In this document: positions 19,366 to 33,790 of the stretch, in pieces
How positions within the stretch are numbered: position 1 is the stretch's first letter
Layout of the letters: the number at the start of each line of letters is the position of its first letter
Origin: Tychonema sp. LEGE 06208
GTDB taxonomy: Bacteria; Cyanobacteriota; Cyanobacteriia; Cyanobacteriales; Microcoleaceae
DNA: 44,507 bases
NCBI RefSeq assembly: GCF_015207505.1
Contig: NZ_JADEWT010000049.1
Coordinates: 1 to 44,507 of the forward strand
Direction: 5' to 3'
Notes under the pieces: generated by a model
What the model was told of the DNA's origin: nothing
Seen by the model: the letters and a program-made list of their open reading frames with translations, nothing else
Databases searched by the model: none
Program-made: the position numbers and the translations under genes

Positions 19366-19389
19366 AATGTTGTTAGCAATTTTTGAGTT

Positions 19390-19463
19390 GGGTGCGTAAC
19401 TCAGTTGGATAGAGTAGCTGCCTTCTAAGCAGCGAGCCGCAGGTTCAAGTCCTGCCGTACCCG
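19390..19463 (+). tRNA. tRNA-Arg (anticodon UCU)
   Basis: A full cloverleaf folds: acceptor GGGTGCG with CGTACCC, D-arm ACTC-loop-GAGT, anticodon arm GCTGC-CTTCTAA-GCAGC with TCT at 19424-19426, and T-arm GCAGG-TTCAAGT-CCTGC. The discriminator base is G. CCA is not encoded. The 3' half of the gene is the attachment core of the adjacent element, which restores an identical sequence, so the tRNA stays functional. Confidence 0.95.
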
Positions 19464-19466
19464 TTA
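19418..19466 (+). repeat. Left att core (49 bp) within the 3' half of tRNA-Arg
   Basis: This 49-bp sequence recurs identically at 26530-26578 and 33642-33690, spaced exactly 7,112 bp apart. It starts in the anticodon stem and ends three bases past the discriminator, as expected for tyrosine integrases that target tRNA genes. Confidence 0.95.
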
Positions 19467-19537
19467 CTAAAACCTAATAGCATCAATGCTTTGAGCCGTT
19501 CTTTACCGAAAAGTAGAGGGCGGCTCAAACCTTATTT

Positions 19538-19583
19538 GTTTCGCATTTGTTTCGCATTTTGTTTCGCACAACAAATGCGAAAC
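19538..19583. promoter_or_regulatory. GTTTCGCA repeats, candidate left arm sites
   Basis: GTTTCGCA occurs at 19538, 19549 and 19561 in direct orientation (11-12 bp apart, about one helical turn) and inverted (TGCGAAAC) at 19576. The same octamer recurs three times near the other end at 26441-26470 and once at 25149. The helical phasing next to att fits binding by the integrase N-terminal domain or an excisionase. Confidence 0.65.
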
Positions 19584-19636
19584 ACTGCCTATCTGGGTCA
19601 GAGGTGGTATCCCGGCATCCTTTCAGCAGACACGGG

Positions 19637-19951
19637 TCAACTCTCCGAGCCCAATATTTCCAAGAACGTCTCCACGTCTGCCAAGTCCGCTCTGGATTTT
19701 TTGCGCCGCGCTTTTAACTGGTTGAGCAAGTCAGCCGGTTCTGGAAAATCGGGAAAATTTTTCCTGGGTGCATCATTTTTTGATTTTTGTCTCAGGTCGG
19801 AGAGTTCTGTGTCAATTCCTCCCCGATCGCGCTGCGCTTCCTTGAGTTCTTGCTCCAACATCTGCACCTTTAGCCCCAAATCGCCGTTGCGCTCGTGTAA
19901 CTGATTGAGTTCCACATCCCATTCTGCAAGTTGCTTGTTGGCCGCTTTCAA
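19637..19951 (-). CDS. Coiled-coil frame, probably the -1 frameshift extension of the upstream RHH gene
   Basis: This frame codes for a long heptad-rich coiled coil (L-N-Q-L-H-E-R-N-G-D-L-G-L-K-V then L-E-Q-E-L-K-E-A-Q-R) and a basic C-terminal helix. It contains no ATG; the first usable codon is TTG 19951 with only a weak purine site. The frame is open upstream through the end of the RHH gene and is reached there by a -1 shift at G GGA AAA. A shift product would be 213 residues: 94 from the RHH frame and 119 from this one. It could join a DNA-binding domain to an oligomerising coiled coil. Independent initiation at TTG (104 residues) is the alternative. Confidence 0.6.
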   Translation of the reverse strand: MKAANKQLAEWDVELNQLHERNGDLGLKVQMLEQELKEAQRDRGGIDTELSDLRQKSKNDAPRKNFPDFPEPADLLNQLKARRKKSRADLADVETFLEILGSES

Positions 19952-19955
19952 TTCC

Positions 19956-20002
19956 TGCCTGAGTGATTCATCGTTGCCATCACTCAGGCACTCAATTTTC
20001 CC
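19956..20002 (-). promoter_or_regulatory. Candidate programmed -1 frameshift signal
   Basis: On the minus strand the slippery heptamer GGGAAAA (20002-19996) lies in the reading frame as G GGA AAA. After a 5-nt spacer comes a perfect 12-bp stem, TGCCTGAGTGAT with ATCACTCAGGCA, around an 11-nt loop (19990-19956). The zero-frame TGA lies inside the stem. This is the classic layout of -1 frameshift sites. The stem has no T-run, so it is not a typical terminator. Confidence 0.65.
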
Positions 20003-20277
20003 AAGCGTTCTTCAATCCCTGCTAATTTAGTGGCTAGCAGTGTGTCTAGCTTACTATCTAGCAATTTGTCTAGCACTGGTTGAATGTCCGAAATTTCGGA
20101 CACTTGTGTTTGAGGTTGGATTGTTGGCGCTGATATTGCCTGGTTGGCCGCTTGCTCTAAGGTGCGGATTACCCAAGCATTGACGCTCAAACCCTCTGCT
20201 GCTGCAACATTTTTAATGGTTTCGAGCAAGTCTCGGCGACCGTCTAATCTCAAGTTAAGCTGGCATCTGTCTGTCAT
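19984..20277 (-). CDS. Ribbon-helix-helix-like regulator RHH-1
   Basis: This is a 97-residue protein. Residues about 6-45 fit an Arc/MetJ-type ribbon-helix-helix: the strand L-N-L-R-L-D, helix A around L-L-E-T-I-K-N-V-A-A-A-E-G, then S-V-N-A-W-V-I-R-T-L-E-Q-A. The tail is helical and ends I-E-E-R-L-G-K-L, a pattern shared with the second regulator (I-E-E-R-L-E-K-L), so the two are probably related. Three 34-bp repeats with TGTCTAG sites lie directly upstream, one overlapping its ribosome-binding region, which suggests autoregulation. Its last codons hold the frameshift signal. Plausible roles are copy-number, partition or excision control. Confidence 0.7.
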   Translation of the reverse strand: MTDRCQLNLRLDGRRDLLETIKNVAAAEGLSVNAWVIRTLEQAANQAISAPTIQPQTQVSEISDIQPVLDKLLDSKLDTLLATKLAGIEERLGKLSA

Positions 20278-20290
20278 GTTTAGTACCTGT

Positions 20291-20392
20291 CTAGTGGTCG
20301 TTTAGCTAAATACTAGCACTTTGTTTAGTGGTTGTCTAGTTAAATACTAGCACTTTGTTTAGTGGTTGTCTAGTTGGATGCTAGCACTCTGT
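20291..20392. repeat. Three 34-bp direct repeats with TGTCTAG (operator/iteron array)
   Basis: The units 20291-20324, 20325-20358 and 20359-20392 differ by only a few bases. Each combines a TAGTGGT..GT(C/T)TAG half with ACTAGCACT or GCTAGCACT. TGTCTAG occurs at 20288, 20333, 20367 and 20390. The array fills the gap between the two RHH genes, so it is best read as the operator of RHH-1; an iteron or centromere role is an alternative. Confidence 0.75.
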
Positions 20393-20396
20393 CTAG

Positions 20397-20684
20397 CTAG
20401 TCAACCTTCAGTTTTTCCAGACGTTCTTCAATGACAGCTATCCGTTTAATTAGTGGGGCAAGACGATCGGATATAAGTATGTCTACACTTTCGGCGGCTA
20501 CTGTAGACACGAGGTTAGTGTCACTTTCTTTAGACAGCGTGGTAGACGTGCCTGAGACTTCCTTGAGAATGCGTTGTGCAGCTTGATTAACCGACTCACC
20601 GTCTAATCTCTGAGCTTCTATCCAATTCAGGAAGTGACCGGAAGCTCTAAACGATACGACTTGACTTTGACTCATTGTAGACAT
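20397..20684 (-). CDS. Ribbon-helix-helix-like regulator RHH-2
   Basis: This is a 95-residue protein whose N-terminus (V-V-S-F-R-A-S-G then F-L-N-W-I-E-A-Q-R-L-D-G-E-S-V-N-Q-A-A-Q-R-I-L) fits a strand followed by two helices, as in CopG/Arc regulators. A polar middle and a C-terminal helix (I-A-V-I-E-E-R-L-E-K-L) follow. ATG 20682-20684 lies within a TGTAGACA palindrome half, with no Shine-Dalgarno, and an alternative ATG is three codons further on. TGTCTACA/TGTAGACA sites crowd its upstream region, so self-repression by occlusion of the start is likely. It differs from copy 2 by Pro to Thr in D-R-L-A-P-L. Confidence 0.65.
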   Translation of the reverse strand: MSTMSQSQVVSFRASGHFLNWIEAQRLDGESVNQAAQRILKEVSGTSTTLSKESDTNLVSTVAAESVDILISDRLAPLIKRIAVIEERLEKLKVD

Positions 20685-20759
20685 CTGTATACAGTATTTG
20701 TCTACAATAACTGATAGCTGTCTACACTGTCAACAATTTGTCTACAAAATTTGTAGACA
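20676..20759. promoter_or_regulatory. TGTCTACA/TGTAGACA operator cluster of RHH-2
   Basis: The octamer occurs at 20676 (as TGTAGACA, over the start codon), 20699, 20719, 20739 and 20752, with spacings of 13-23 bp. The last two form an inverted pair around AAAATT. Further copies at 20480 and 20512 lie inside the RHH-2 gene. The motif differs by one base from the TGTCTAG family beside RHH-1. Confidence 0.7.
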
Positions 20760-20763
20760 TAAA

Positions 20764-20785
20764 AATCCCCCAGTTAAGGGGGATG
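20764..20785 (-). terminator. Intrinsic terminator of the primase-helicase gene
   Basis: On the minus strand ATCCCCC, a short loop and GGGGGAT are followed directly by TTTTT, about 30 bp after the primase stop. This is a canonical Rho-independent terminator. It separates the primase transcript from the RHH genes, which must then have their own promoter. Confidence 0.8.
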
Positions 20786-20813
20786 GGTTTAGCCGTCAAC
20801 AGTCAGGCAGCGG

Positions 20814-23528
20814 CTAAATTTTCCGCAGGTTACAGAAGAGCATTGAGATTACCCGTCCGCCCTTCATGCCTTCGCGCTCTTGCCAGTCAACCTTGCAACT
20901 GATGCTCGTGTGAATCTCGACGATGCGGCCGTGCCAGTTGTAGCTAATATCCTCTGGATTGTTGCCAGCCACTTTGTCTCCAACTCTGAATGCTTTGAGC
21001 GGGTCAGAGCAGGGAATGCCGGTGAGTAGTTCTACCAGTTTTTGCTTGTCGGAGACAGAGAGTTTGGAGAACGAATTGCAAAATTCCAAAAGAGTTGGAT
21101 TTTCATCGCAACCATCGCAACCTTGGCTCTGGCTAAGGGTTTCATCGCAACCGTCAAGACAACCGAGTTGCGATGGCAGTTGCGATGAAACCCTCTCTGT
21201 GCAAGGGGGTTGCGATGGTTGCGATGAATTCACAAGTTTCAATCCAAAAATAAATTTGTGACCTTTTCGTTCCTGAGTATCAACCCGCCGCTCAATCTTG
21301 GGGAATAATTCCCGCAAGCGCAAATACAAATCTTGAGACTTCTTCACTGGTGAGTCATAGGGCGATTCAGCTTCCCACGACTTTTTAGTTTTTTTACCGG
21401 AGTCATCAACAGTCAGCCACCCATTCTCCAAATACCAGTCCTCCAACATTTCATAAAGGTCTCCAATGTAAACCTTGCCCTCTGGGTTGAATTCCAATCC
21501 AACCTCACGAGCAAACTGCCACAAGTGCCGGCTTTCTTCCTGAGCTTCCCGCATCGCCTCACGAGTCGCCTTGTAGTCAATACCCTCAGCCAGCAACAGC
21601 GGCATCCGCTCCAACATCTTGTTAAGCATCGCCGGCGCAATCCGCTCCAGAATAAAGTCCGGGTCATCCTTAAAACGCGGGTCAGCCTCTAACTCACCCT
21701 GAGACGGGTCAGCGCCGCGCTTGTAAGTTTTCTTAAAGCTCAGGATGCCGTAGCGGTCATCAATAGCAGCCGTCCCCCCGGTGATAGACGGTAGCTTGTT
21801 GCAGTTGGCTAAGAAAATCGCAGCAGGCTTGTATTCGTAGCTATCCTTACCTTTGCGCTCAATATCAAGAGGGTCGCCTGTGATGAACTGCTTAAGACTT
21901 TGAAGAGCGTCGAGACTCACATTTGAAGCATTCTCAGAAGCCCAATTGCAGACACCGCCCTCAATGGTAGCCAGTGCAAATTTACGTCCACCGTCATAAG
22001 ACTTGAAGTCCGACAGTGACTTCCCAGTCATCCCCCGCCCAAAGACAGCAGCCAACACGGCCCGCAGCGTATCTTTGCCGTTAGACCCCTCGCCGTAGCA
22101 CAGCAAGCCCTTGACTCCCTTACCAGTCAGCTTTGACCGCACCAATTTCAAATTCAACGCAGCAGCAGCAGTCCGCAGAAATATCTCGCGCTGTGCCGGC
22201 TCCAAACATTCCAAAAGGCGATCGCAATCGGCGCTATCAACATCAGGCTTATACTCGCTCCCGACGTAGGTATAGACCTGGTTAGGGTCATGTGGCACAA
22301 GCGAGTGAGAGCCATCAGGATTAATCCTCACTACCCCGTTAGAGCAGTTCAAACCGTCAGGATTTATCTTGTTGGGGTCAACGGCGCTCCGATCAATAAC
22401 CCACTTGAGAACCTCGGCTACGTTACTAGACTTGGCTCGGTTGTTGACCCAAACACCCTTTACCTTTTCCGCGTAGGTATTAAGCCAGTCACCGATACGA
22501 CGTTTTTCTTCGGATTCCGAGCGCAATTGGTAGTGACTGCCGACATAGTGATAAAGCTGACCTCCAATAGATTTCCAGTGACCGTCTGAGTAAAGTGCAG
22601 CCTCTGCCTTCTGTACGAAGTTTTGGAGTGCAGTCGGCGCTGTGTCTAGGATGTAGTCCCCTTTAATACTGTCATACTTCTGGCATACTACATCTTCTCG
22701 CGTACGCGGGTGAGGAGTTAAAGAAATATTAGGGTTTGAAATGTCAATTTTGCGATCGCTTTTTTTAAGCTGTTTTTCCCATTTGACTAGGGTTGGCGCG
22801 TCCGCTACAGATTCCTTGAAAGCGTCAGCACCGTTAGCTTTGATGAAATCATCCATCCCTTTGAATTTGGTATCCCAAACCGTGATGTGTACCTCACAGC
22901 CATGCTCTGCCAGCAAGCGGCCAAACTTCAAAATGGCTGCACGGCAAGATGAATTGGCTGCGTAGTCAGAGTCAAAGTCTATGTAATGAACAGTTTCAGG
23001 TTGCGCCCAGTTTTCAACCTCTTTTGCCAACTGCCCGTCTTTGCCCCAATTCCAAACTCCTGTCAAAGCAATGGTTGCTAAGCCGATGCTCAGTCCAGAG
23101 CCAGCCTTTTTAACCCCTTCTGTCCAGTGCCGGGGAACAGAGAGGTCGTTGCGAGTCTTGAGCCAGTAATCTCTGTCTGGCATGGCTAGGAAGATTGCGT
23201 CGGGTTCCATTCCTGATGCTGTTAGGTACTTACGCGGTTTTTGCCCTTCTGGTTGATGCGGTTTGTCTGGCTTGCCCTGGCCGTAGCGGTTCCCTGTTTT
23301 TACCCCAGTGCGCCAATTGATGCTGCGGCACCACCAACCACCTGTTTTGATTGGTTCTTTGGGCTGGATGCGTTCGTTGAGTTCTTTGGCCGTCAGCGAT
23401 TCGATATTGAGACGGGCGATCGCTTCTGATACGGCTGAACCTTCAACCCACTCGGCGAGGTGTTTGGGGCTGATGAAGGTTGAATTTTGAGATGCAGAAT
23501 TTGACCCAGTGGGGTATGATGAATTCAT
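20814..23528 (-). CDS. Primase-helicase (DUF3854/TOPRIM-like plus D5/SF3 helicase)
   Basis: This is a 904-residue replication protein of phage/plasmid type. The N-terminal ~250 residues match DUF3854, a TOPRIM-like primase module (E-G-V-K-K-A-G-S-G at about 137, Y-I-D-F-D-S-D at 182-188, G-M-D-D-F at 224-228). A D5-type superfamily 3 helicase follows, with Walker A GEGSNGKDT (about 479-487) and F-L-A-N-C-N-K-L-P as the sensor strand. A linker with alternating S-Q-P-S-Q and G-C-D-G-C-D-E segments is encoded by nested inverted repeats. The C-terminus looks like a small KOW/SH3-like domain (F-R-V-G-D-K-V-A-G). It presumably unwinds and primes the excised element at its own origin. AGGGCGG precedes the ATG. 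Confidence 0.88.
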   Translation of the reverse strand: MNSSYPTGSNSASQNSTFISPKHLAEWVEGSAVSEAIARLNIESLTAKELNERIQPKEPIKTGGWWCRSINWRTGVKTGNRYGQGKPDKPHQPEGQKPRKYLTASGMEPDAIFLAMPDRDYWLKTRNDLSVPRHWTEGVKKAGSGLSIGLATIALTGVWNWGKDGQLAKEVENWAQPETVHYIDFDSDYAANSSCRAAILKFGRLLAEHGCEVHITVWDTKFKGMDDFIKANGADAFKESVADAPTLVKWEKQLKKSDRKIDISNPNISLTPHPRTREDVVCQKYDSIKGDYILDTAPTALQNFVQKAEAALYSDGHWKSIGGQLYHYVGSHYQLRSESEEKRRIGDWLNTYAEKVKGVWVNNRAKSSNVAEVLKWVIDRSAVDPNKINPDGLNCSNGVVRINPDGSHSLVPHDPNQVYTYVGSEYKPDVDSADCDRLLECLEPAQREIFLRTAAAALNLKLVRSKLTGKGVKGLLCYGEGSNGKDTLRAVLAAVFGRGMTGKSLSDFKSYDGGRKFALATIEGGVCNWASENASNVSLDALQSLKQFITGDPLDIERKGKDSYEYKPAAIFLANCNKLPSITGGTAAIDDRYGILSFKKTYKRGADPSQGELEADPRFKDDPDFILERIAPAMLNKMLERMPLLLAEGIDYKATREAMREAQEESRHLWQFAREVGLEFNPEGKVYIGDLYEMLEDWYLENGWLTVDDSGKKTKKSWEAESPYDSPVKKSQDLYLRLRELFPKIERRVDTQERKGHKFIFGLKLVNSSQPSQPPCTERVSSQLPSQLGCLDGCDETLSQSQGCDGCDENPTLLEFCNSFSKLSVSDKQKLVELLTGIPCSDPLKAFRVGDKVAGNNPEDISYNWHGRIVEIHTSISCKVDWQEREGMKGGRVISMLFCNLRKI
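21103..21227. repeat. Nested inverted repeats inside the primase linker
   Basis: TCATCGCAACCATCGCAACC (21103-21122) is a perfect 20-bp inverted copy of 21208-21227. Inside it, TTTCATCGCAAC (21140-21151) and its complement (21179-21190) form a second pair. They encode the G-C-D-G-C-D-E and S-S-Q-P-S-Q-P linker segments on the same strand. Confidence 0.8.
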
Positions 23529-24391
23529 GAGTGTACCGCCCTAAAAAGCGGGTTTAGTACCAAAAGACTGCTGCAACACTGGGTTCCAATCAGAGGCAGC
23601 GGTTTTTTGGCGTTTACTTTTTTGAAAAATTGAAAGCTTAAATGGAACCAGCTTGTATCGCCATGCAAAATCAAGCATCAAAGGAATGCGTTTTGCTTGC
23701 GATAAAAAGCCAGTCACCTCGTGCAAATGAGAGTCCAGCTTACCTCTGGTGGGTCGTATGCACTCACGGCGCTTATCACCGGGCCGTCTGTTTACCGGGT
23801 TTTAACCCGCCCTTCCTAGCAACCTACTTTGGGAGATTCCCGAACCCATTCGTCGCCATCGACCGCGACAGATTCGCCTACTCTTTCTCTTGTCAAAGCA
23901 TTTCTTGGGCTGCCTACCGGATGCACCTCAATTGCTCAAGGCTAGAGTCCCACCAATTTAAATCCTACATCTTGCCGAAAAGTTGCGGCTATTTTTCCGA
24001 AGTTCCGGCGGAATCTGTGCAACTTCGGCAGAGCTTGCTAGCGGAACATCGGAAAAATCCCGCTAGATAAACCCAGGAGCTTAAAGAAGGAATCAAGTAA
24101 TCAGAAAACATATCAAAATAGATGATAAATTGTTTGTTATCTATTTTTTGCTATTTTTCAACTAACATTATCTATTAAGCTTTTTTTCTACTTGTTAAAG
24201 AGTGTACCGGGTATTACTCAGTTCCGGTTGCCTGCGGCGCCTTAAATTCTAGAGGCACGGCCGGGGGGGGCGGGCCATAAACCAGCTCCCCCCCCGGCCC
24301 GCGTTTTCACTTTTCCTCTTCCTCCTGTTGACTAACAGCTCGCGGGCGATATTGCCAGCAGTTAAAGCACAAGCAATCGCAGCCGTTAAGC
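23529..24391. other. Element spacer with candidate replication origin
   Basis: This 860-bp stretch upstream of the primase is the only large non-coding part of the element. It holds a minus-strand frame reaching to 12 bp before the primase (23541-23726 by a TTG start, open further upstream but lacking an ATG). It also holds an imperfect cruciform at 23979-24066, an A/T-rich tract with TATCTATT repeats (24103-24190) and a very G/C-rich hairpin (24259-24300). Inverted structures beside an A/T-rich tract next to a primase gene suggest an origin. The plus-strand frame 23642-24070 shows no protein-like features. Confidence 0.45.
24103..24190. other. Candidate origin: A/T-rich tract with TATCTATT repeats
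   Basis: TATCTATT appears twice direct, plus an inverted AAATAGAT, in a strongly A/T-rich 90-bp stretch. An imperfect hairpin block around GGATTTTTCCGATGTTCCGC precedes it. The combination resembles a DNA-unwinding element with iterons. No function is shown by sequence alone. Confidence 0.35.
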
Positions 24392-24658
24392 TTAGCCCCC
24401 TGCAAGGTTTTGTGAATGTCTAGCTTTTGGTCTAGTGCTGCTAGTGGTGTCTACAAAAGCGTCTACACTATCTAGTATTGTGTCTAGCACTGTGTCTAGC
24501 GACTCGCTATCAACTAGGTAAAGTTCTAGCAGCGCTTCCCAAGTAGCAGTCTTGGAAAGCTTCCCGAACTGCTTAGCGTCTTCGTTGGTGAAACCACAGG
24601 CAAAAGCCAGAGCCTTGAGTTGGTCAATCCGCCGACAACTAGCAGCAGGTTTAGTCAT
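24392..24658 (-). CDS. Unknown small element protein A
   Basis: ATG 24656-24658 gives 88 residues and overlaps the end of the upstream gene by 8 bp (ATGACTAA), so the two are translationally coupled. The N-terminal half is helical (R-R-I-D-Q-L-K-A-L-A-F-A-C-G-F-T-N-E-D-A-K-Q). The C-terminal half is an L-D-T/V-D-T-rich acidic stretch. The DNA coding for that stretch contains TGTCTAG at 24417, 24481 and 24493 and TGTCTAC at 24448, the same motifs as the operators of the two RHH genes. I do not recognise a family; a DNA-binding accessory such as an excisionase is possible but unproven. Confidence 0.6.
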   Translation of the reverse strand: MTKPAASCRRIDQLKALAFACGFTNEDAKQFGKLSKTATWEALLELYLVDSESLDTVLDTILDSVDAFVDTTSSTRPKARHSQNLAGG

Positions 24659-24995
24659 TCCCGCCCCCAGCACTAGCGGCCAAAATGAATTTGATTGATT
24701 GCAAAGCTTCCTCTAATCCATCTGCAAGCTCCTCACTCGCGTCGGGCCAAGTGTCCGTCCATACGCCCAGTAGATTAAGGGCTTTACCGTTTTCGGGGTT
24801 GTCCAGACTGGCAAGGTAGTTCTTTGTGGCAAACACAAAAATATCGTTGTCGCACAAATACTTAAAATTGGCGCTGCACCCATTCAGCAAGGCAAAAATG
24901 TGCTCAAGGGTTGCGCGGTCAATAGTAACTGTCTCTTTCGCCTTAAACGTAAAGAGTTGCGATCGTCCGCAAAGACAATCGTCTGAAAATGTCAT
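24651..24995 (-). CDS. Unknown small element protein B
   Basis: I use ATG 24993-24995 (114 residues), with GGAG about 11 nt upstream; the frame is open to 25025. It is a soluble acidic protein with a predicted strand-helix N-terminus (T-V-T-I-D-R-A-T-L-E-H-I-F-A-L-L) and a C-terminal helix (E-E-L-A-D-G-L-E-E-A-L-Q-S-I). Three cysteines lie near the N-terminus and middle. No family is recognised. It lies downstream of the integrase on the same strand, separated by about 195 bp with one GTTTCGCA site at 25149. Confidence 0.6.
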   Translation of the reverse strand: MTFSDDCLCGRSQLFTFKAKETVTIDRATLEHIFALLNGCSANFKYLCDNDIFVFATKNYLASLDNPENGKALNLLGVWTDTWPDASEELADGLEEALQSIKFILAASAGGGND

Positions 24996-25189
24996 AATTA
25001 TTCGGCTCCAAACGTTCCAACACAACGATTTGGGGAAGTCGTGGTTTGGCTAGCATTGTCAGTGCTCGTCAACCGCGCATCAATCTTCCTTAGTTACTCA
25101 CGATTGCAGACTTACACTTCCTTGTCAACACAGGGACTGTAAAGTTTTGTTTCGCAAAAGTTGCCCCTAGAATCAACATCCTAACAGCA

Positions 25190-26398
25190 TCAAAGCGGGC
25201 GTAAATGCTCCAATATTTTGTTGTCTAAATAGTGGGAATTAATAATACTTTCCGACGTATCACACCAGCGAGCAATTACCGCAGATGGGATACCTTGCGC
25301 CAATTGTTCGCTAATAAAAGTATCCCGACAAGAATATGGAGTCGTAGGCTTGTAACCAGGTTCCCGCGTCTTGTCAGTGATAGGTACAACTATCTTGTGC
25401 CAAGCTCTTTGAGAAAAATTACTGTAGTTGATTACGTCCCCGGTAGGAGAAGAGAAAACAATTTTTTTAGAGTCAAACTGTTGCGGTCTAATTGACACTA
25501 AAAACTCTTTCAACTCATTATTGCAAGGGAATTTTCGGTGTTTGTTATTTTTACTGCCCTTACTCTCAACAGCTTTCCCCTCAATGAACTGAATACTGCC
25601 GTTGAACAAAACATAAGAACAGTCGGGCGAGATATTCCCCCAAGTCAAGCCAATAGCTTCGCTAGGACGGCAACCCGTTAAAAACCAAAACTTTACCAAT
25701 GGGTAGTATGTGTGGTAGCAGTGTCCGGGTTTATTCTTGTGAGACTCAAAAGCTTGCAGCACCAGCAACTTTTCTTCAGTAACAAAACCATTAGGGGCGG
25801 GGTCGTTTTGCCAGTTGTACTTAGGCAAATCATTAGCCATATCTTTGTAAGGACTAACAGGTAAAGTAATCAACCTATGCTTGATACCCCAACTAACAGC
25901 AGCATTTAAGTGAGTAAGAATGCGCTTAGTCATGTCCCCCGTTGTTGTCCCTAAAAGGACTTCGCGAACTTCTAGCGCTTGCAGAATATCCGAAGGACAC
26001 TTGGCTATGTGTCGCCCCAACGTAGTCTGCAAGTAATGCAAAGACTTTGGCTTGAGCGTGTTCTGCTTGTAGTTTAAATATTTGTCCCACAATTCTTGTA
26101 GCGTCAGACTTGTTGCCCCAAATTTAGCCTGGACCAGGTTACCGCTGTGTTTGTGGAGTTGGACAGGTTTGTATTTGCTTAAATCATTTGGGTCAAACAT
26201 TCCTGTAAGGATGTCAAGCTCAATCTGCTTAGCCTTGCATTCTGCGATCGCCCGGTTTTCCAAAGTATCCGGCAGACCCATGCACACAAACTTATTTTTA
26301 CCCCCGTAAAGCTCGCGAGGTAAATGAAGGCGTAGCAGACCCCGGCTTACCATCACCCCTACAGTCCCTTTTTTCCGACGCTGAGATTTGTTTACTTG
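25190..26398 (-). CDS. Tyrosine recombinase/integrase, copy 1
   Basis: This integrase has about 402 residues from ATG 26396-26398; a GTG nine codons upstream is an alternative. The N-terminal ~70 residues resemble an arm-binding domain (T-V-G-V-M-V then L-R-L-H-L-P-R). A SAM-like core-binding domain follows, then the catalytic domain with box-I Arg in G-C-R-P-S-E-A-I-G, a beta-hairpin Lys (E-S-K-G-S-K), box-II Y-S-C-R-D-T-F (Tyr and Asp replace the common His residues), and the nucleophile in S-H-Y-L-D. It lies at the att-proximal end and should integrate and excise the element at tRNA-Arg. Three arm-like GTTTCGCA repeats lie just upstream. Confidence 0.93.
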   Translation of the reverse strand, partial: QVNKSQRRKKGTVGVMVSRGLLRLHLPRELYGGKNKFVCMGLPDTLENRAIAECKAKQIELDILTGMFDPNDLSKYKPVQLHKHSGNLVQAKFGATSLTLQELWDKYLNYKQNTLKPKSLHYLQTTLGRHIAKCPSDILQALEVREVLLGTTTGDMTKRILTHLNAAVSWGIKHRLITLPVSPYKDMANDLPKYNWQNDPAPNGFVTEEKLLVLQAFESHKNKPGHCYHTYYPLVKFWFLTGCRPSEAIGLTWGNISPDCSYVLFNGSIQFIEGKAVESKGSKNNKHRKFPCNNELKEFLVSIRPQQFDSKKIVFSSPTGDVINYSNFSQRAWHKIVVPITDKTREPGYKPTTPYSCRDTFISEQLAQGIPSAVIARWCDTSESIINSHYLDNKILEHLRPL

Positions 26399-26440
26399 CA
26401 TGGTTAGGTCATTAACTCTGCACACCTACAGTACCAAATT

Positions 26441-26470
26441 GTTTCGCATTTGTTTCGCATTTGTTTCGCA
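26441..26470. promoter_or_regulatory. GTTTCGCA repeats, candidate right arm sites (copy 1)
   Basis: There are three direct copies at 26441, 26452 and 26463 with exact 11-bp spacing. They lie between the integrase start and the att core, so they may also regulate the integrase promoter. Confidence 0.65.
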
Positions 26471-26529
26471 TTTTGCATGACAAAAAACTAAGAAGCTTAC
26501 GCACAGGGTGATACAATAATTTGAGGCTA

Positions 26530-26578
26530 CTGCCTTCTAAGCAGCGAGCCGCAGGTTCAAGTCCTGCCGTACCCGTTA
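26530..26578 (+). repeat. Central att core with tRNA-Arg 3' fragment
   Basis: It is identical to the left core but preceded by element DNA, not by the 5' half of the tRNA, so it cannot encode a tRNA. It marks the junction between the tandem copies and is equivalent to attP of a circular form. Confidence 0.95.
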
Positions 26579-26649
26579 CTAAAACCTAATAGCATCAATG
26601 CTTTGAGCCGTTCTTTACCGAAAAGTAGAGGGCGGCTCAAACCTTATTT

Positions 26650-26695
26650 GTTTCGCATTTGTTTCGCATTTTGTTTCGCACAACAAATGCGAAAC
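26650..26695. promoter_or_regulatory. GTTTCGCA left arm sites, copy 2
   Basis: These are the same three direct and one inverted octamers as at 19538-19583. They lie 72 bp beyond the central att core, so in the array the left arm of copy 2 and the right arm of copy 1 flank this core as they would in a circular attP. Confidence 0.6.
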
Positions 26696-26748
26696 ACTGC
26701 CTATCTGGGTCAGAGGTGGTATCCCGGCATCCTTTCAGCAGACACGGG

Positions 26749-27063
26749 TCAACTCTCCGAGCCCAATATTTCCAAGAACGTCTCCACGTCTGCCAAGTCC
26801 GCTCTGGATTTTTTGCGCCGCGCTTTTAACTGGTTGAGCAAGTCAGCCGGTTCTGGAAAATCGGGAAAATTTTTCCTGGGTGCATCATTTTTTGATTTTT
26901 GTCTCAGGTCGGAGAGTTCTGTGTCAATTCCTCCCCGATCGCGCTGCGCTTCCTTGAGTTCTTGCTCCAACATCTGCACCTTTAGCCCCAAATCGCCGTT
27001 GCGCTCGTGTAACTGATTGAGTTCCACATCCCATTCTGCAAGTTGCTTGTTGGCCGCTTTCAA
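26749..27063 (-). CDS. Coiled-coil frame, copy 2
   Basis: The protein is identical to the frame at 19637-19951, again without an ATG and reached by the same -1 frameshift signal. The same 213-residue fusion is predicted. Confidence 0.6.
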   Translation of the reverse strand: MKAANKQLAEWDVELNQLHERNGDLGLKVQMLEQELKEAQRDRGGIDTELSDLRQKSKNDAPRKNFPDFPEPADLLNQLKARRKKSRADLADVETFLEILGSES

Positions 27064-27067
27064 TTCC

Positions 27068-27114
27068 TGCCTGAGTGATTCATCGTTGCCATCACTCAGG
27101 CACTCAATTTTCCC
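27068..27114 (-). promoter_or_regulatory. Candidate -1 frameshift signal, copy 2
   Basis: The slippery GGGAAAA (27114-27108) and 12-bp stem (27102-27068) are unchanged from copy 1. Confidence 0.65.
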
Positions 27115-27389
27115 AAGCGTTCTTCAATCCCTGCTAATTTAGTGGCTAGCAGTGTGTCTAGCTTACTATCTAGCAATTTGTCTAGCACTGGTTGAATGTC
27201 CGAAATTTCGGACACTTGTGTTTGAGGTTGGATTGTTGGCGCTGATATTGCCTGGTTGGCCGCTTGCTCTAAGGTGCGGATTACCCAAGCATTGACGCTC
27301 AAACCCTCTGCTGCTGCAACATTTTTAATGGTTTCGAGCAAGTCTCGGCGACCGTCTAATCTCAAGTTAAGCTGGCATCTGTCTGTCAT
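27096..27389 (-). CDS. Ribbon-helix-helix-like regulator RHH-1, copy 2
   Basis: The 97 residues are identical to copy 1, with the same TGTCTAG repeats upstream (27403-27504). A second source of the same repressor would double the dose and could silence both copies jointly. Confidence 0.7.
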   Translation of the reverse strand: MTDRCQLNLRLDGRRDLLETIKNVAAAEGLSVNAWVIRTLEQAANQAISAPTIQPQTQVSEISDIQPVLDKLLDSKLDTLLATKLAGIEERLGKLSA

Positions 27390-27402
27390 GTTTAGTACCT
27401 GT

Positions 27403-27504
27403 CTAGTGGTCGTTTAGCTAAATACTAGCACTTTGTTTAGTGGTTGTCTAGTTAAATACTAGCACTTTGTTTAGTGGTTGTCTAGTTGGATGCTAGCACT
27501 CTGT
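27403..27504. repeat. Three 34-bp direct repeats, copy 2
   Basis: This array is identical to the one at 20291-20392, upstream of the second RHH-1 gene. Confidence 0.75.
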
Positions 27505-27508
27505 CTAG

Positions 27509-27796
27509 CTAGTCAACCTTCAGTTTTTCCAGACGTTCTTCAATGACAGCTATCCGTTTAATTAGTGTGGCAAGACGATCGGATATAAGTATGTCTACAC
27601 TTTCGGCGGCTACTGTAGACACGAGGTTAGTGTCACTTTCTTTAGACAGCGTGGTAGACGTGCCTGAGACTTCCTTGAGAATGCGTTGTGCAGCTTGATT
27701 AACCGACTCACCGTCTAATCTCTGAGCTTCTATCCAATTCAGGAAGTGACCGGAAGCTCTAAACGATACGACTTGACTTTGACTCATTGTAGACAT
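27509..27796 (-). CDS. Ribbon-helix-helix-like regulator RHH-2, copy 2
   Basis: It is the same as copy 1 except for Thr instead of Pro in D-R-L-A-T-L, outside the predicted DNA-binding region. The start again lies inside a TGTAGACA site. Confidence 0.65.
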   Translation of the reverse strand: MSTMSQSQVVSFRASGHFLNWIEAQRLDGESVNQAAQRILKEVSGTSTTLSKESDTNLVSTVAAESVDILISDRLATLIKRIAVIEERLEKLKVD

Positions 27797-27871
27797 CTGT
27801 ATACAGTATTTGTCTACAATAACTGATAGCTGTCTACACTGTCAACAATTTGTCTACAAAATTTGTAGACA
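27788..27871. promoter_or_regulatory. TGTCTACA/TGTAGACA operator cluster, copy 2
   Basis: These are the same five octamers, in the same positions relative to RHH-2, as at 20676-20759. Confidence 0.7.
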
Positions 27872-27875
27872 TAAA

Positions 27876-27897
27876 AATCCCCCAGTTAAGGGGGATG
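27876..27897 (-). terminator. Intrinsic terminator of primase-helicase, copy 2
   Basis: It has the same ATCCCCC-loop-GGGGGAT stem and T-run as at 20764-20785. Confidence 0.8.
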
Positions 27898-27925
27898 GGT
27901 TTAGCCGTCAACAGTCAGGCAGCGG

Positions 27926-30640
27926 CTAAATTTTCCGCAGGTTACAGAAGAGCATTGAGATTACCCGTCCGCCCTTCATGCCTTCGCGCTCTTGCCAGTC
28001 AACCTTGCAACTGATGCTCGTGTGAATCTCGACGATGCGGCCGTGCCAGTTGTAGCTAATATCCTCTGGATTGTTGCCAGCCACTTTGTCTCCAACTCTG
28101 AATGCTTTGAGCGGGTCAGAGCAGGGAATGCCGGTGAGTAGTTCTACCAGTTTTTGCTTGTCGGAGACAGAGAGTTTGGAGAACGAATTGCAAAATTCCA
28201 AAAGAGTTGGATTTTCATCGCAACCATCGCAACCTTGGCTCTGGCTAAGGGTTTCATCGCAACCGTCAAGACAACCGAGTTGCGATGGCAGTTGCGATGA
28301 AACCCTCTCTGTGCAAGGGGGTTGCGATGGTTGCGATGAATTCACAAGTTTCAATCCAAAAATAAATTTGTGACCTTTTCGTTCCTGAGTATCAACCCGC
28401 CGCTCAATCTTGGGGAATAATTCCCGCAAGCGCAAATACAAATCTTGAGACTTCTTCACTGGTGAGTCATAGGGCGATTCAGCTTCCCACGACTTTTTAG
28501 TTTTTTTACCGGAGTCATCAACAGTCAGCCACCCATTCTCCAAATACCAGTCCTCCAACATTTCATAAAGGTCTCCAATGTAAACCTTGCCCTCTGGGTT
28601 GAATTCCAATCCAACCTCACGAGCAAACTGCCACAAGTGCCGGCTTTCTTCCTGAGCTTCCCGCATCGCCTCACGAGTCGCCTTGTAGTCAATACCCTCA
28701 GCCAGCAACAGCGGCATCCGCTCCAACATCTTGTTAAGCATCGCCGGCGCAATCCGCTCCAGAATAAAGTCCGGGTCATCCTTAAAACGCGGGTCAGCCT
28801 CTAACTCACCCTGAGACGGGTCAGCGCCGCGCTTGTAAGTTTTCTTAAAGCTCAGGATGCCGTAGCGGTCATCAATAGCAGCCGTCCCCCCGGTGATAGA
28901 CGGTAGCTTGTTGCAGTTGGCTAAGAAAATCGCAGCAGGCTTGTATTCGTAGCTATCCTTACCTTTGCGCTCAATATCAAGAGGGTCGCCTGTGATGAAC
29001 TGCTTAAGACTTTGAAGAGCGTCGAGACTCACATTTGAAGCATTCTCAGAAGCCCAATTGCAGACACCGCCCTCAATGGTAGCCAGTGCAAATTTACGTC
29101 CACCGTCATAAGACTTGAAGTCCGACAGTGACTTCCCAGTCATCCCCCGCCCAAAGACAGCAGCCAACACGGCCCGCAGCGTATCTTTGCCGTTAGACCC
29201 CTCGCCGTAGCACAGCAAGCCCTTGACTCCCTTACCAGTCAGCTTTGACCGCACCAATTTCAAATTCAACGCAGCAGCAGCAGTCCGCAGAAATATCTCG
29301 CGCTGTGCCGGCTCCAAACATTCCAAAAGGCGATCGCAATCGGCGCTATCAACATCAGGCTTATACTCGCTCCCGACGTAGGTATAGACCTGGTTAGGGT
29401 CATGTGGCACAAGCGAGTGAGAGCCATCAGGATTAATCCTCACTACCCCGTTAGAGCAGTTCAAACCGTCAGGATTTATCTTGTTGGGGTCAACGGCGCT
29501 CCGATCAATAACCCACTTGAGAACCTCGGCTACGTTACTAGACTTGGCTCGGTTGTTGACCCAAACACCCTTTACCTTTTCCGCGTAGGTATTAAGCCAG
29601 TCACCGATACGACGTTTTTCTTCGGATTCCGAGCGCAATTGGTAGTGACTGCCGACATAGTGATAAAGCTGACCTCCAATAGATTTCCAGTGACCGTCTG
29701 AGTAAAGTGCAGCCTCTGCCTTCTGTACGAAGTTTTGGAGTGCAGTCGGCGCTGTGTCTAGGATGTAGTCCCCTTTAATACTGTCATACTTCTGGCATAC
29801 TACATCTTCTCGCGTACGCGGGTGAGGAGTTAAAGAAATATTAGGGTTTGAAATGTCAATTTTGCGATCGCTTTTTTTAAGCTGTTTTTCCCATTTGACT
29901 AGGGTTGGCGCGTCCGCTACAGATTCCTTGAAAGCGTCAGCACCGTTAGCTTTGATGAAATCATCCATCCCTTTGAATTTGGTATCCCAAACCGTGATGT
30001 GTACCTCACAGCCATGCTCTGCCAGCAAGCGGCCAAACTTCAAAATGGCTGCACGGCAAGATGAATTGGCTGCGTAGTCAGAGTCAAAGTCTATGTAATG
30101 AACAGTTTCAGGTTGCGCCCAGTTTTCAACCTCTTTTGCCAACTGCCCGTCTTTGCCCCAATTCCAAACTCCTGTCAAAGCAATGGTTGCTAAGCCGATG
30201 CTCAGTCCAGAGCCAGCCTTTTTAACCCCTTCTGTCCAGTGCCGGGGAACAGAGAGGTCGTTGCGAGTCTTGAGCCAGTAATCTCTGTCTGGCATGGCTA
30301 GGAAGATTGCGTCGGGTTCCATTCCTGATGCTGTTAGGTACTTACGCGGTTTTTGCCCTTCTGGTTGATGCGGTTTGTCTGGCTTGCCCTGGCCGTAGCG
30401 GTTCCCTGTTTTTACCCCAGTGCGCCAATTGATGCTGCGGCACCACCAACCACCTGTTTTGATTGGTTCTTTGGGCTGGATGCGTTCGTTGAGTTCTTTG
30501 GCCGTCAGCGATTCGATATTGAGACGGGCGATCGCTTCTGATACGGCTGAACCTTCAACCCACTCGGCGAGGTGTTTGGGGCTGATGAAGGTTGAATTTT
30601 GAGATGCAGAATTTGACCCAGTGGGGTATGATGAATTCAT
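27926..30640 (-). CDS. Primase-helicase, copy 2
   Basis: The 904-residue protein appears identical to the one at 20814-23528, with DUF3854/TOPRIM-like and D5/SF3 helicase domains intact. No difference was seen across its length. Confidence 0.88.
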   Translation of the reverse strand: MNSSYPTGSNSASQNSTFISPKHLAEWVEGSAVSEAIARLNIESLTAKELNERIQPKEPIKTGGWWCRSINWRTGVKTGNRYGQGKPDKPHQPEGQKPRKYLTASGMEPDAIFLAMPDRDYWLKTRNDLSVPRHWTEGVKKAGSGLSIGLATIALTGVWNWGKDGQLAKEVENWAQPETVHYIDFDSDYAANSSCRAAILKFGRLLAEHGCEVHITVWDTKFKGMDDFIKANGADAFKESVADAPTLVKWEKQLKKSDRKIDISNPNISLTPHPRTREDVVCQKYDSIKGDYILDTAPTALQNFVQKAEAALYSDGHWKSIGGQLYHYVGSHYQLRSESEEKRRIGDWLNTYAEKVKGVWVNNRAKSSNVAEVLKWVIDRSAVDPNKINPDGLNCSNGVVRINPDGSHSLVPHDPNQVYTYVGSEYKPDVDSADCDRLLECLEPAQREIFLRTAAAALNLKLVRSKLTGKGVKGLLCYGEGSNGKDTLRAVLAAVFGRGMTGKSLSDFKSYDGGRKFALATIEGGVCNWASENASNVSLDALQSLKQFITGDPLDIERKGKDSYEYKPAAIFLANCNKLPSITGGTAAIDDRYGILSFKKTYKRGADPSQGELEADPRFKDDPDFILERIAPAMLNKMLERMPLLLAEGIDYKATREAMREAQEESRHLWQFAREVGLEFNPEGKVYIGDLYEMLEDWYLENGWLTVDDSGKKTKKSWEAESPYDSPVKKSQDLYLRLRELFPKIERRVDTQERKGHKFIFGLKLVNSSQPSQPPCTERVSSQLPSQLGCLDGCDETLSQSQGCDGCDENPTLLEFCNSFSKLSVSDKQKLVELLTGIPCSDPLKAFRVGDKVAGNNPEDISYNWHGRIVEIHTSISCKVDWQEREGMKGGRVISMLFCNLRKI

Positions 30641-31503
30641 GAGTGTACCGCCCTAAAAAGCGGGTTTAGTACCAAAAGACTGCTGCAACACTGGGTTCCA
30701 ATCAGAGGCAGCGGTTTTTTGGCGTTTACTTTTTTGAAAAATTGAAAGCTTAAATGGAACCAGCTTGTATCGCCATGCAAAATCAAGCATCAAAGGAATG
30801 CGTTTTGCTTGCGATAAAAAGCCAGTCACCTCGTGCAAATGAGAGTCCAGCTTACCTCTGGTGGGTCGTATGCACTCACGGCGCTTATCACCGGGCCGTC
30901 TGTTTACCGGGTTTTAACCCGCCCTTCCTAGCAACCTACTTTGGGAGATTCCCGAACCCATTCGTCGCCATCGACCGCGACAGATTCGCCTACTCTTTCT
31001 CTTGTCAAAGCATTTCTTGGGCTGCCTACCGGATGCACCTCAATTGCTCAAGGCTAGAGTCCCACCAATTTAAATCCTACATCTTGCCGAAAAGTTGCGG
31101 CTATTTTTCCGAAGTTCCGGCGGAATCTGTGCAACTTCGGCAGAGCTTGCTAGCGGAACATCGGAAAAATCCCGCTAGATAAACCCAGGAGCTTAAAGAA
31201 GGAATCAAGTAATCAGAAAACATATCAAAATAGATGATAAATTGTTTGTTATCTATTTTTTGCTATTTTTCAACTAACATTATCTATTAAGCTTTTTTTC
31301 TACTTGTTAAAGAGTGTACCGGGTATTACTCAGTTCCGGTTGCCTGCGGCGCCTTAAATTCTAGAGGCACGGCCGGGGGGGGCGGGCCATAAACCAGCTC
31401 CCCCCCCGGCCCGCGTTTTCACTTTTCCTCTTCCTCCTGTTGACTAACAGCTCGCGGGCGATATTGCCAGCAGTTAAAGCACAAGCAATCGCAGCCGTTA
31501 AGC
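30641..31503. other. Element spacer with candidate origin, copy 2
   Basis: It has the same structures as 23529-24391: cruciform block (31091-31178), A/T-rich tract with TATCTATT repeats (31215-31302) and G/C-rich hairpin (31371-31412). Two origins would be present in the tandem array. Confidence 0.45.
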
Positions 31504-31770
31504 TTAGCCCCCTGCAAGGTTTTGTGAATGTCTAGCTTTTGGTCTAGTGCTGCTAGTGGTGTCTACAAAAGCGTCTACACTATCTAGTATTGTGTCTAGC
31601 ACTGTGTCTAGCGACTCGCTATCAACTAGGTAAAGTTCTAGCAGCGCTTCCCAAGTAGCAGTCTTGGAAAGCTTCCCGAACTGCTTAGCGTCTTCGTTGG
31701 TGAAACCACAGGCAAAAGCCAGAGCCTTGAGTTGGTCAATCCGCCGACAACTAGCAGCAGGTTTAGTCAT
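31504..31770 (-). CDS. Unknown small element protein A, copy 2
   Basis: It is identical to 24392-24658, including the TGTCTAG/TGTCTAC cluster in its 3' coding end and the 8-bp overlap with the preceding gene. Confidence 0.6.
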   Translation of the reverse strand: MTKPAASCRRIDQLKALAFACGFTNEDAKQFGKLSKTATWEALLELYLVDSESLDTVLDTILDSVDAFVDTTSSTRPKARHSQNLAGG

Positions 31771-32107
31771 TCCCGCCCCCAGCACTAGCGGCCAAAATGA
31801 ATTTGATTGATTGCAAAGCTTCCTCTAATCCATCTGCAAGCTCCTCACTCGCGTCGGGCCAAGTGTCCGTCCATACGCCCAGTAGATTAAGGGCTTTACC
31901 GTTTTCGGGGTTGTCCAGACTGGCAAGGTAGTTCTTTGTGGCAAACACAAAAATATCGTTGTCGCACAAATACTTAAAATTGGCGCTGCACCCATTCAGC
32001 AAGGCAAAAATGTGCTCAAGGGTTGCGCGGTCAATAGTAACTGTCTCTTTCGCCTTAAACGTAAAGAGTTGCGATCGTCCGCAAAGACAATCGTCTGAAA
32101 ATGTCAT
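31763..32107 (-). CDS. Unknown small element protein B, copy 2
   Basis: It is identical to 24651-24995. No family is recognised. Confidence 0.6.
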   Translation of the reverse strand: MTFSDDCLCGRSQLFTFKAKETVTIDRATLEHIFALLNGCSANFKYLCDNDIFVFATKNYLASLDNPENGKALNLLGVWTDTWPDASEELADGLEEALQSIKFILAASAGGGND

Positions 32108-32301
32108 AATTATTCGGCTCCAAACGTTCCAACACAACGATTTGGGGAAGTCGTGGTTTGGCTAGCATTGTCAGTGCTCGTCAACCGCGCATCAATCTTC
32201 CTTAGTTACTCACGATTGCAGACTTACACTTCCTTGTCAACACAGGGACTGTAAAGTTTTGTTTCGCAAAAGTTGCCCCTAGAATCAACATCCTAACAGC
32301 A

Positions 32302-33510: not shown

Positions 33511-33552
33511 CATGGTTAGGTCATTAACTCTGCACACCTACAGTACCAAATT

Positions 33553-33582
33553 GTTTCGCATTTGTTTCGCATTTGTTTCGCA
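33553..33582. promoter_or_regulatory. GTTTCGCA right arm sites, copy 2
   Basis: These are three direct octamers 11 bp apart between the second integrase and the right att core, identical to those at 26441-26470. Confidence 0.65.
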
Positions 33583-33641
33583 TTTTGCATGACAAAAAAC
33601 TAAGAAGCTTACGCACAGGGTGATACAATAATTTGAGGCTA

Positions 33642-33690
33642 CTGCCTTCTAAGCAGCGAGCCGCAGGTTCAAGTCCTGCCGTACCCGTTA
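33642..33690 (+). repeat. Right att core with tRNA-Arg 3' fragment
   Basis: This is the third identical 49-bp copy. It marks the junction with host DNA. Sequence to its right diverges from the element but remains similar to the element's left end. Confidence 0.95.
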
Positions 33691-33790
33691 AAACAACACT
33701 ATACACAGTAATACTTTCAGCCGTTTTTGATTTGAATGGCGAGACTGGTTCAAACCTTATTTGTCCTGCATTTGTTCCGAATTCGGTCAT
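33691..33790. mobile_element. Remnant resembling the element's left end
   Basis: Aligned with 19467-19570, this host flank shares CAGCCGTT versus GAGCCGTT, TCAAACCTTATTTGT, and TGCATTTGTTCCGA in place of CGCATTTGTTTCGCA. Spacing is nearly conserved across about 95 bp. It looks like a decayed left arm of an earlier, related insertion at the same tRNA. Confidence 0.6.

Follow-up and report, generated by a model that had tools for sequence, protein, structure and literature searches.

We analysed a stretch of 44,507 nucleotides from Tychonema sp. LEGE 06208 (the window), which is contig 176 among the 232 contigs of the genome, and conclude that a small gene within it, RHH-1, very probably uses programmed -1 ribosomal frameshifting. 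Judged from sequence, the signal itself, its conservation, the protein-type selection on the -1 frame and the setting in a mobile element are all supported.

The 3' codons of RHH-1 read TTG GGA AAA TTG AGT GCC TGA, so that the slippery heptamer G GGA AAA is in phase, and the 5-nt spacer TTGAG separates it from the downstream stem. The -1 frame is open from 20011 to the stop ending at 19637, with TGA at 20014 as the preceding -1 stop, and its first ATG, GTG or TTG is the TTG at 19951, past the slip junction. A -1 shift after AAA would join 94 residues to 119, giving a fusion of 213 amino acids. Heptamer, spacer, 12-bp stem and 11-nt loop had been claimed from the sequence alone, and we reproduced them exactly; the arithmetic of a 213-residue fusion beside a 97-residue form holds as well, and the overlapping open frame, said to have no ATG, proved also to lack GTG and TTG ahead of the TTG named above. 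The RNA of the site folds with -20.5 kcal/mol (z -5.3), and none of 200 shuffles was equally stable. The window contains 434 slippery-type heptamers (both strands, any phase), among which only those of the two unit copies described below are followed at 3-9 nt by a perfect stem of at least 10 bp, two further ones having a 9-bp perfect stem; in 60 simulated windows a heptamer with a stem of at least 12 bp arose on average 0.017 times per window. The sequence-only reading had also pointed out that the signal is unchanged in both copies. The copies are indeed identical over 704 nt at an offset of +7112, but as the tandem units differ at only 4 of 7,112 positions a matching signal is expected and proves nothing, and we dropped copy identity as evidence.

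Table 1. Features of the RHH-1 region and of the surrounding element (window coordinates).
Feature	Position	Strand	Remarks
RHH-1 gene, short form, 97 aa	19984..20277	minus	0-frame ORF, ATG 20277, TGA 19986-19984
Slippery heptamer G GGA AAA	19996..20002	minus	in phase with 0 frame
12-bp stem (19990-19979 with 19967-19956), 11-nt loop	19956..19990	minus	perfect pairing
-1 frame extension, 119 residues plus stop	19637..19996	minus	predicted coiled coil and C-terminal helical hairpin
Second copy of RHH-1 unit	26749..27389	minus	heptamer 27114-27108, 0-frame ORF 27096-27389
GTCTAG repeats inside and upstream of RHH-1	20043..20396		34-bp direct repeats at about 20288-20396
GTCTAC repeats in RHH-2 gene and upstream	20481-20758		repeat scan
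tRNA-Arg (TCT), attachment site	19389..19464	plus	3' part from 19418 recurs at 26530 and 33642
RHH-2, second small ORF, single frame	20397..20684	minus	RHH-like by eye
Primase-helicase, 904 aa	20814..23528	minus	DUF3854, D5_N, DUF5906
Small ORF with GTCTAG and GTCTAC repeats in coding sequence	24392..24673	minus	repeat scan
Tyrosine integrase	25190..26425	minus	domain matches

RHH-1 sits in a 7,112-bp integrative element inserted in a tRNA-Arg gene; two units of it stand in tandem, bounded by copies of the 3' portion of tRNA-Arg(TCT). With its tyrosine integrase and the directly repeated 3' end of the tRNA it has both marks of a tRNA-integrating element. The tandem copies (19465-33697) differ at 20456 (RHH-2, Pro to Thr) and, within the integrase, at 25624, 25650 and 25718, with two residue changes (Gly to Val and Asp to Tyr). 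For RHH-2 no RHH family match was obtained in the libraries scanned (Pfam, PHROGs); the protein resembles the N-terminus of many of the frameshift loci described below. In a check for a phage satellite the PHROG scan of five element proteins gave primase, integrase and Arc-like matches, and the PADLOC scan of seven gave none. Elsewhere in the window a long 18-bp tandem array encoding Thr/Pro repeats (5980-6555) lies inside ORF 5433-7889, which looks like a gene for a Ca-binding-repeat protein.

At its N-terminus RHH-1 resembles Arc-type ribbon-helix-helix (RHH) proteins in sequence and fold. It matches the PHROG Arc-like repressor with an E value of 6.5e-5 and Pfam Arc with 18.6 bits, under the cut-off of 20.4. 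An AlphaFold2 model of the single-frame relative P0001, which is 72% identical to the window fusion, has a mean pLDDT of 79.8 and a pTM of 0.35 and contains helices 15-27 and 32-48 as in RHH proteins, a long helix (62-158) and a C-terminal helical hairpin (168-182/186-198). Foldseek comparison of its N-terminal part with Arc chains gave TMt values up to 0.83 (E 3.7), none of them significant, and the two matches of a PDB sequence search (E 0.42 and 0.75) were not useful. As the slip junction falls within the long helix, roughly the first third of that helix would remain in the short form. Pfam scanning of the -1 extension returned weak coiled-coil models only and no transposase catalytic domain. 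Arc-like fold, long helix and matching repeats make the proposed pair of a short repressor and a long oligomerising form plausible.

A protein search returned 142 relatives, and many of the best 120 span the whole fusion in a single frame, so that decay by loss of one base is the reading to be weighed first. Among the 22 loci obtained from a scan of genome contigs, L008, L009, L010, L012 and L020 have an RHH-1-type half followed by the coiled coil in the -1 frame. At L011, L013-L016, L018 and L019 an RHH-2-type half stands at the N-terminus instead, again followed by G GGA AAA and the common -1 continuation. In both types the 0 frame has the same short ending, LSA-stop, which in L009 reads LKA-stop. 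Counting the window, 12 of 13 loci have the -1 extension intact, and in L020 it is truncated. L018 has its stem deleted and the -1 frame kept, L022 keeps the heptamer with a broken 3' arm, and both L020 and L022 are decayed; the far more diverged L023 has heptamer, 5-nt spacer and a 10-bp stem with a different loop.

Two of these loci bear traces of rearrangement. Compared with window 19637-20277, L008 is 98.9% identical in its N-terminal part (95 residues) and matches in the hairpin, and its coiled coil has diverged (pS 0.52), pointing to recombination just 3' of the hairpin. In L015 (3587-3630) the hairpin loop is the usual loop inverted, with one mismatch and intact arms, as if it had been flipped through the inverted repeat.

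For a wider catalogue, loci were fetched by protein similarity and not by slip site. The fusion query matched 24 of 291 genomes of the order, a Nostoc-type query 9 of 388 genomes of the class, and a C-terminal domain alignment query 119 of 217 genomes of family f33; from f33 we took 30 loci, 20 more chosen by hand, mostly high in the ranking, and 20 low-ranking ones as a separate sample. The catalogue holds 93 distinct loci (deduplicated at no more than 3 mismatches in 165 nt) and was screened with one profile each for the Microcoleus and the Nostoc type of C-terminal domain, the -1 class requiring an upstream ORF of at least 55 codons. The C-terminal domain lies in the -1 frame at 62 loci (23 of Microcoleus and 39 of Nostoc type), in the +1 frame at three and in a single frame at 13, with 15 partial, decayed or unclear; the catalogue consists of high-similarity relatives, so 62 of 93 is not a frequency in nature. 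L009 and L041, which look -1 and missed the 55-residue rule, are among the 15 set aside. As to the +1 cases, L042 has a masked 60-residue partner and its own ATG, and in L045 and L046 a C-terminal domain fragment, probably an element remnant, overlaps in +1 the terminal part of a roughly 490-residue ORF, by eye a histidine kinase end. With an own ATG in the one and a kinase-like partner in the others, no convincing +1 relative is left.

All but one of the 62 -1 loci have an in-phase slip site in the overlap, ahead of the 0-frame stop. GGGAAAA occurs at 43 loci and GGGAAAG at 5 (GGGAAAR, 48 of 62), GGGGGAG at 11 and GGGGGAA at 2; the last two (GGGGGAR) are not full X XXY YYZ sites and allow full re-pairing for the P-site tRNA only, so that these 13 loci, 9 of them with a stem, are less certain. 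L120, the sole locus without a slip site, is probably a false member. In-phase slip sites amount to 61 in 939 overlap codons, as against 2 in 6,582 codons before and 1 in 6,068 after the overlap. A stem 4-8 nt downstream, defined as uninterrupted with G-U allowed and at least 7 Watson-Crick pairs, follows the slip site at 50 of 61 loci and in 27 of 3,660 dinucleotide shuffles, with spacers of 6 nt (30 stems), 5 nt (16), 7 nt (2), 4 nt (1) and 8 nt (1). Seven of the 61 loci have no stem of at least 5 bp in this range, and four have merely 5-6 pairs. The -1 loci come from seven cyanobacterial families (codes of the search tool): f1, f20, f33 and f55 have GGGAAAR and a clear hairpin, f14 (L028/L047) has GGGAAAG and no clear hairpin, and f2 (L054) and f17 (L048) have GGGGGAG and a hairpin.

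Stem pairing is conserved. In an alignment of 12 hairpins, which left out L018, L022 and L023 (stem deleted, 3' arm broken and other loop, respectively), 97.2% of the cells pair. The covariation score was 0.169 compared with a mean of 0.057 for shuffled alignments, none of 500 shuffles being as high, and slid versions of the alignment reached at most 0.042. One stem pair occurs in three forms (CG 5, UA 5, AU 2). Changes on both sides affect 2 of 12 stem pairs, a number that 32 of 500 shuffles also reach, which makes this measure weak by itself. The stem type GCCTGAG is found in Microcoleus and others, and unrelated stems occupy the same place in other lineages: GCCCGGTAGT (f33), GCCCGGA (L049), GCCTAGAGG (L138) and CTAGAAGC (L133). 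The alignment of homologues suggested in the sequence-only reading gave conserved heptamer, spacer and stem, and a structure with some covariation near the distance of about 5-9 nt expected of such signals; of the covariation the single covarying pair stands and the two-sided changes carry little weight. A Shine-Dalgarno-like stimulator may also play a part, as a GAGG, AGGA or GGAG word occurs in the 16 nt upstream of the heptamer at 39 of 60 loci (from an earlier list of 61), but the word overlaps conserved Glu-Glu codons, and the window copy lacks the good match.

The coiled coil might instead be made as a separate protein by translational coupling or internal initiation from a non-ATG start, either the CTG overlapping the TGA or TTG 19951. 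At the stop the window does read CTGA, and a TTG follows the heptamer at 45 nt; 46 of the 62 -1 loci have an ATG, GTG or TTG somewhere before the C-terminal domain, so that their sequence allows an internal start. However, 16 have none at all, and only 10 of 62 have one within 30 nt of the 0-frame stop, leaving 52 without. Since the in-phase heptamer and the fixed distance of the hairpin are also left unexplained, we regard an internal start as very unlikely.

Decay, in which one base was lost from a single-frame RHH-coiled-coil gene and the presence of heptamer and hairpin is coincidental, draws on the single-frame relatives, among them P0002, whose protein reads GKLSALSDGNDESLRQ in one frame and would be one base away from the window arrangement, and on the visibly decayed L020 and L022. 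It predicts both directions, whereas 62 loci are -1 and three +1. It also has to account for the state of the -1 frame, which is open and under purifying selection at a dS of about 0.6-3 from the window. Past the hairpin, the -1 frame of 12 loci gave pS 0.498 and pN 0.129, a ratio of 0.26, and 961, 627 and 1934 differences at codon positions 1, 2 and 3, both over 66 pairs that are not independent because the loci are related and partly recombined; the test left out L020 and begins just after the hairpin. Translation best explains how a frame without a start codon keeps this pattern over such distances. Together with in-phase slip sites at 61 of 62 loci and the unrelated stems in other lineages this makes decay still harder to credit than an internal start, and a simple one-base deletion is rejected, as independent loci keep the -1 frame.

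The sequence-only reading had named homologues with no slippery site and an ATG-started coiled-coil gene as evidence against it. This was borne out in part: single-frame relatives without the signal do exist (13 of 93 loci, 15 of 20 lower-ranked places, P0001 and P0002); they are in-frame proteins and leave the frameshift class intact. Of the 20 places in the lower-ranked sample, whose 21st stretch, L134, repeats L025, 15 are single-frame, one is -1 (L157, GGGGGAG), one is +1 (L161) and three are unclear, which makes the frameshift class one branch of the family and the single-frame long form viable too. Programmed -1 frameshifting itself, the central claim, drew support from the direction of the frame relation, the slip sites, the stems with their covarying pair and lineage-specific forms, and the selection on the startless frame.

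The two products would be no different if RNA polymerase, and not the ribosome, slipped at the heptamer, as happens in some IS elements (passages of PMC5009743). Sites of such transcriptional slippage are often homopolymers of at least 8 or two shorter ones combined, according to parts of PMC3711429, and G3A4 could fit the latter. But G3A4 is short, the hairpin lies at ribosomal spacing, and the direction is conserved here, which the same source describes as a mark of ribosomal shifting; we hold transcriptional slippage to be just as hard to credit as decay. Least probable of all is that the hairpin has another job (operator, RNA stability or recombination site) and the frame relation is secondary: the inverted loop of L015 and the mosaic L008, which shares N-terminal part and hairpin with the window but not the coiled coil, indicate that the hairpin site takes part in rearrangement, yet neither the in-phase heptamer nor the startless, selected -1 frame is explained by this.

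In programmed frameshifting as we propose it, unshifted ribosomes would stop at TGA 19984 and release the 97-residue Arc-like RHH protein with a short helix. The hairpin would slow the ribosomes, and a fraction would slip on G GGA AAA to make the 213-residue form, in which the helix would continue into the coiled coil that ends in the conserved helical hairpin. Both forms would have the DNA-binding domain in common, with the GTCTAG repeats in and upstream of the own gene as putative target. The frameshift rate would fix the ratio of short DNA binder to long oligomerising or partner-binding form, and this ratio may set expression, replication or maintenance of the element. From the arrangement we infer a useful shift rate, the DNA targets, oligomerisation and what the ratio controls; that it controls replication, excision or copy number is a tentative suggestion, which we put at somewhat short of an even chance.

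The candidate target repeats are enriched. TGTCTA occurs 20 times in the element, compared with a mean of 2.7 and a maximum of 8 in 200 simulations. In and before RHH-1 there are six GTCTAG and no GTCTAC, and in and before RHH-2 no GTCTAG and eight GTCTAC; some of the repeats are coding (Leu-Asp, Ser-Thr), so part of this pattern could reflect protein constraint. At other loci (up to 600 nt before the slip site, an earlier list of 61 loci) RHH-2-type genes have 0-1 GTCTAG and 6-14 GTCTAC (L019, 0 and 13) and RHH-1-type genes 2-12 and 0-3 (L009, 12 and 0; L010, 2 and 0), with unclassified loci variable (L049, 0 and 7; L043, 1 and 0; L021, none). This pairing suggests that each RHH protein may bind the repeats of its own gene. 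The third small ORF has both repeats at 12-nt spacing within its coding sequence (24392-24673), where they could be a common target or an origin. P0009-P0011 appear to differ in their number of LDTKP units, as if the array within the gene gained and lost repeats without leaving the frame.

The N-terminal parts ahead of the signal differ. BLAST comparison of those in the earlier list of 61 gave clusters of 48 and 8 and five singles; the large cluster arose by single linkage and contains more than one RHH-like type by eye, and the cluster of 8 (L079, L098, L102 and others) resembles P0056, which carries a PF20586 label in the list of relatives, yet has no Pfam match at 1e-3. With such variety ahead of one signal, the latter has the look of a portable module. 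By eye the Microcoleus and Nostoc types of C-terminal domain are alike, but comparison of the short profiles does not support their homology (probability 0.8%). A broader idea, which we offer as a possibility a little weaker than the control by the ratio suggested above, is that a module of slip site, hairpin, coiled coil and helical hairpin is joined to unrelated DNA-binding domains, perhaps with two unrelated tails, in cyanobacterial integrative elements and plasmids, the ratio of short DNA-binding to long bridging regulator acting as a general switch for copy control or excision.

The settings in other genomes are those of mobile elements. At five loci the frameshift gene is followed, within about 0.2 kb, by a tRNA gene: Gly-TCC in L145, Arg-CCG in L146 and L013, Lys-CTT in L016 and Ser-TGA in L019. 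A scan for primase and integrase that left out L013, L016 and L019 showed a DUF5906 primase next to the frameshift gene in L145 and L146 and about 3 kb off in L139, and an integrase in L145 and in L142, a 6,361-bp contig. In L140 (5912-14072) a nitrogenase component 1 (nifD-like) gene is split by an insertion that holds the frameshift gene and an integrase-family ORF (5984-7390) under the Pfam cut-off, and the insertion is perhaps a heterocyst excision element. Plasmids gave one record by DNA search and five by protein search, and the two records fetched (L031, L032) hold single-frame relatives. No relative was found in phages or in the protein scan of viral contigs, and pattern scans of the latter returned a CRISPR spacer (L030) and an unrelated contig (L033). 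The 34-nt spacer, on the minus strand of an IMG/VR contig (L030:5831-5864) between 37-nt repeats, resembles the frameshift site and holds GGGAAAATTGAGGGCTTGAGCGA; an exact protospacer is absent from the 165 other loci. It suggests that a host stores immunity against the frameshift-site part of such elements.

Most known cases of productive frameshifting in bacteria are transposases, phage tail genes and dnaX, with a few others besides. In the titles and beginnings of abstracts of the open-licence literature we found no description of a frameshift family of this kind. The GeneTack survey used seven A-rich heptamers, which according to the parts of PMC3711429 covered do not include GGGAAAA, and its main text makes no mention of Nostoc or Anabaena. 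DUF3854 proteins are tabulated in PMC9679502, in whose covered passages nothing is said on frameshifting. The window gene belongs to a conserved cyanobacterial family in which frameshifting would equip mobile-element regulators with a coiled coil that is not catalytic. Heptamer, spacer and stem occur in this family in dozens of natural variants, on which the tuning of efficiency can be studied, and annotation in single frames misses the long protein. Conservation of the slip signal across dozens of relatives speaks for a genuine control switch.

CopG, ParG and Omega are small RHH plasmid regulators that bind repeats near their own gene, and RHH-1 is like them a small RHH protein with repeats near its gene, on a replicon; we know of no frameshift-made long form of these regulators. 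The phage lambda gpG/gpGT slip site is GGGAAAG, which is present at 5 of the 62 -1 loci, and lambda to our knowledge has no such hairpin. Lambda resembles the window gene in a low-level -1 shift near the 3' end, by which a short form and one with a C-terminal extension are made in a fixed proportion (passages of PMC5009743), but its product is a tail-assembly chaperone and not a DNA binder. Likewise, dnaX and CsoS2 have a shift site with a downstream stem-loop (parts of PMC5009743 and PMC3711429); unlike RHH-1 they are housekeeping genes, and in E. coli dnaX the heptamer is A-rich and the shift makes the shorter product.

Two further systems work in a similar way. In the OrfA/OrfAB pairs of the IS3 family (IS911) the upstream ORF of a mobile element is a DNA binder and possible regulator to which a -1 shift appends a C-terminal part (passages of PMC5009743), but the appended part is the catalytic transposase, whereas in the window it would be coiled coil and helical hairpin, and the window element carries a tyrosine integrase and a primase-helicase. 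FseA of ICEMlSymR7A is, as the same passages describe it, a frameshift-made regulator in an integrative element that controls excision; it arises, however, by a +1 shift from msi172 to msi171, in contrast to -1 in the window, and the fusion is a transcriptional activator, for which those passages mention neither an RHH domain nor a coiled-coil tail. The window gene would work like IS3 OrfA/OrfAB and FseA but is a member of neither class, since no catalytic domain is appended and the shift is -1 and not +1.
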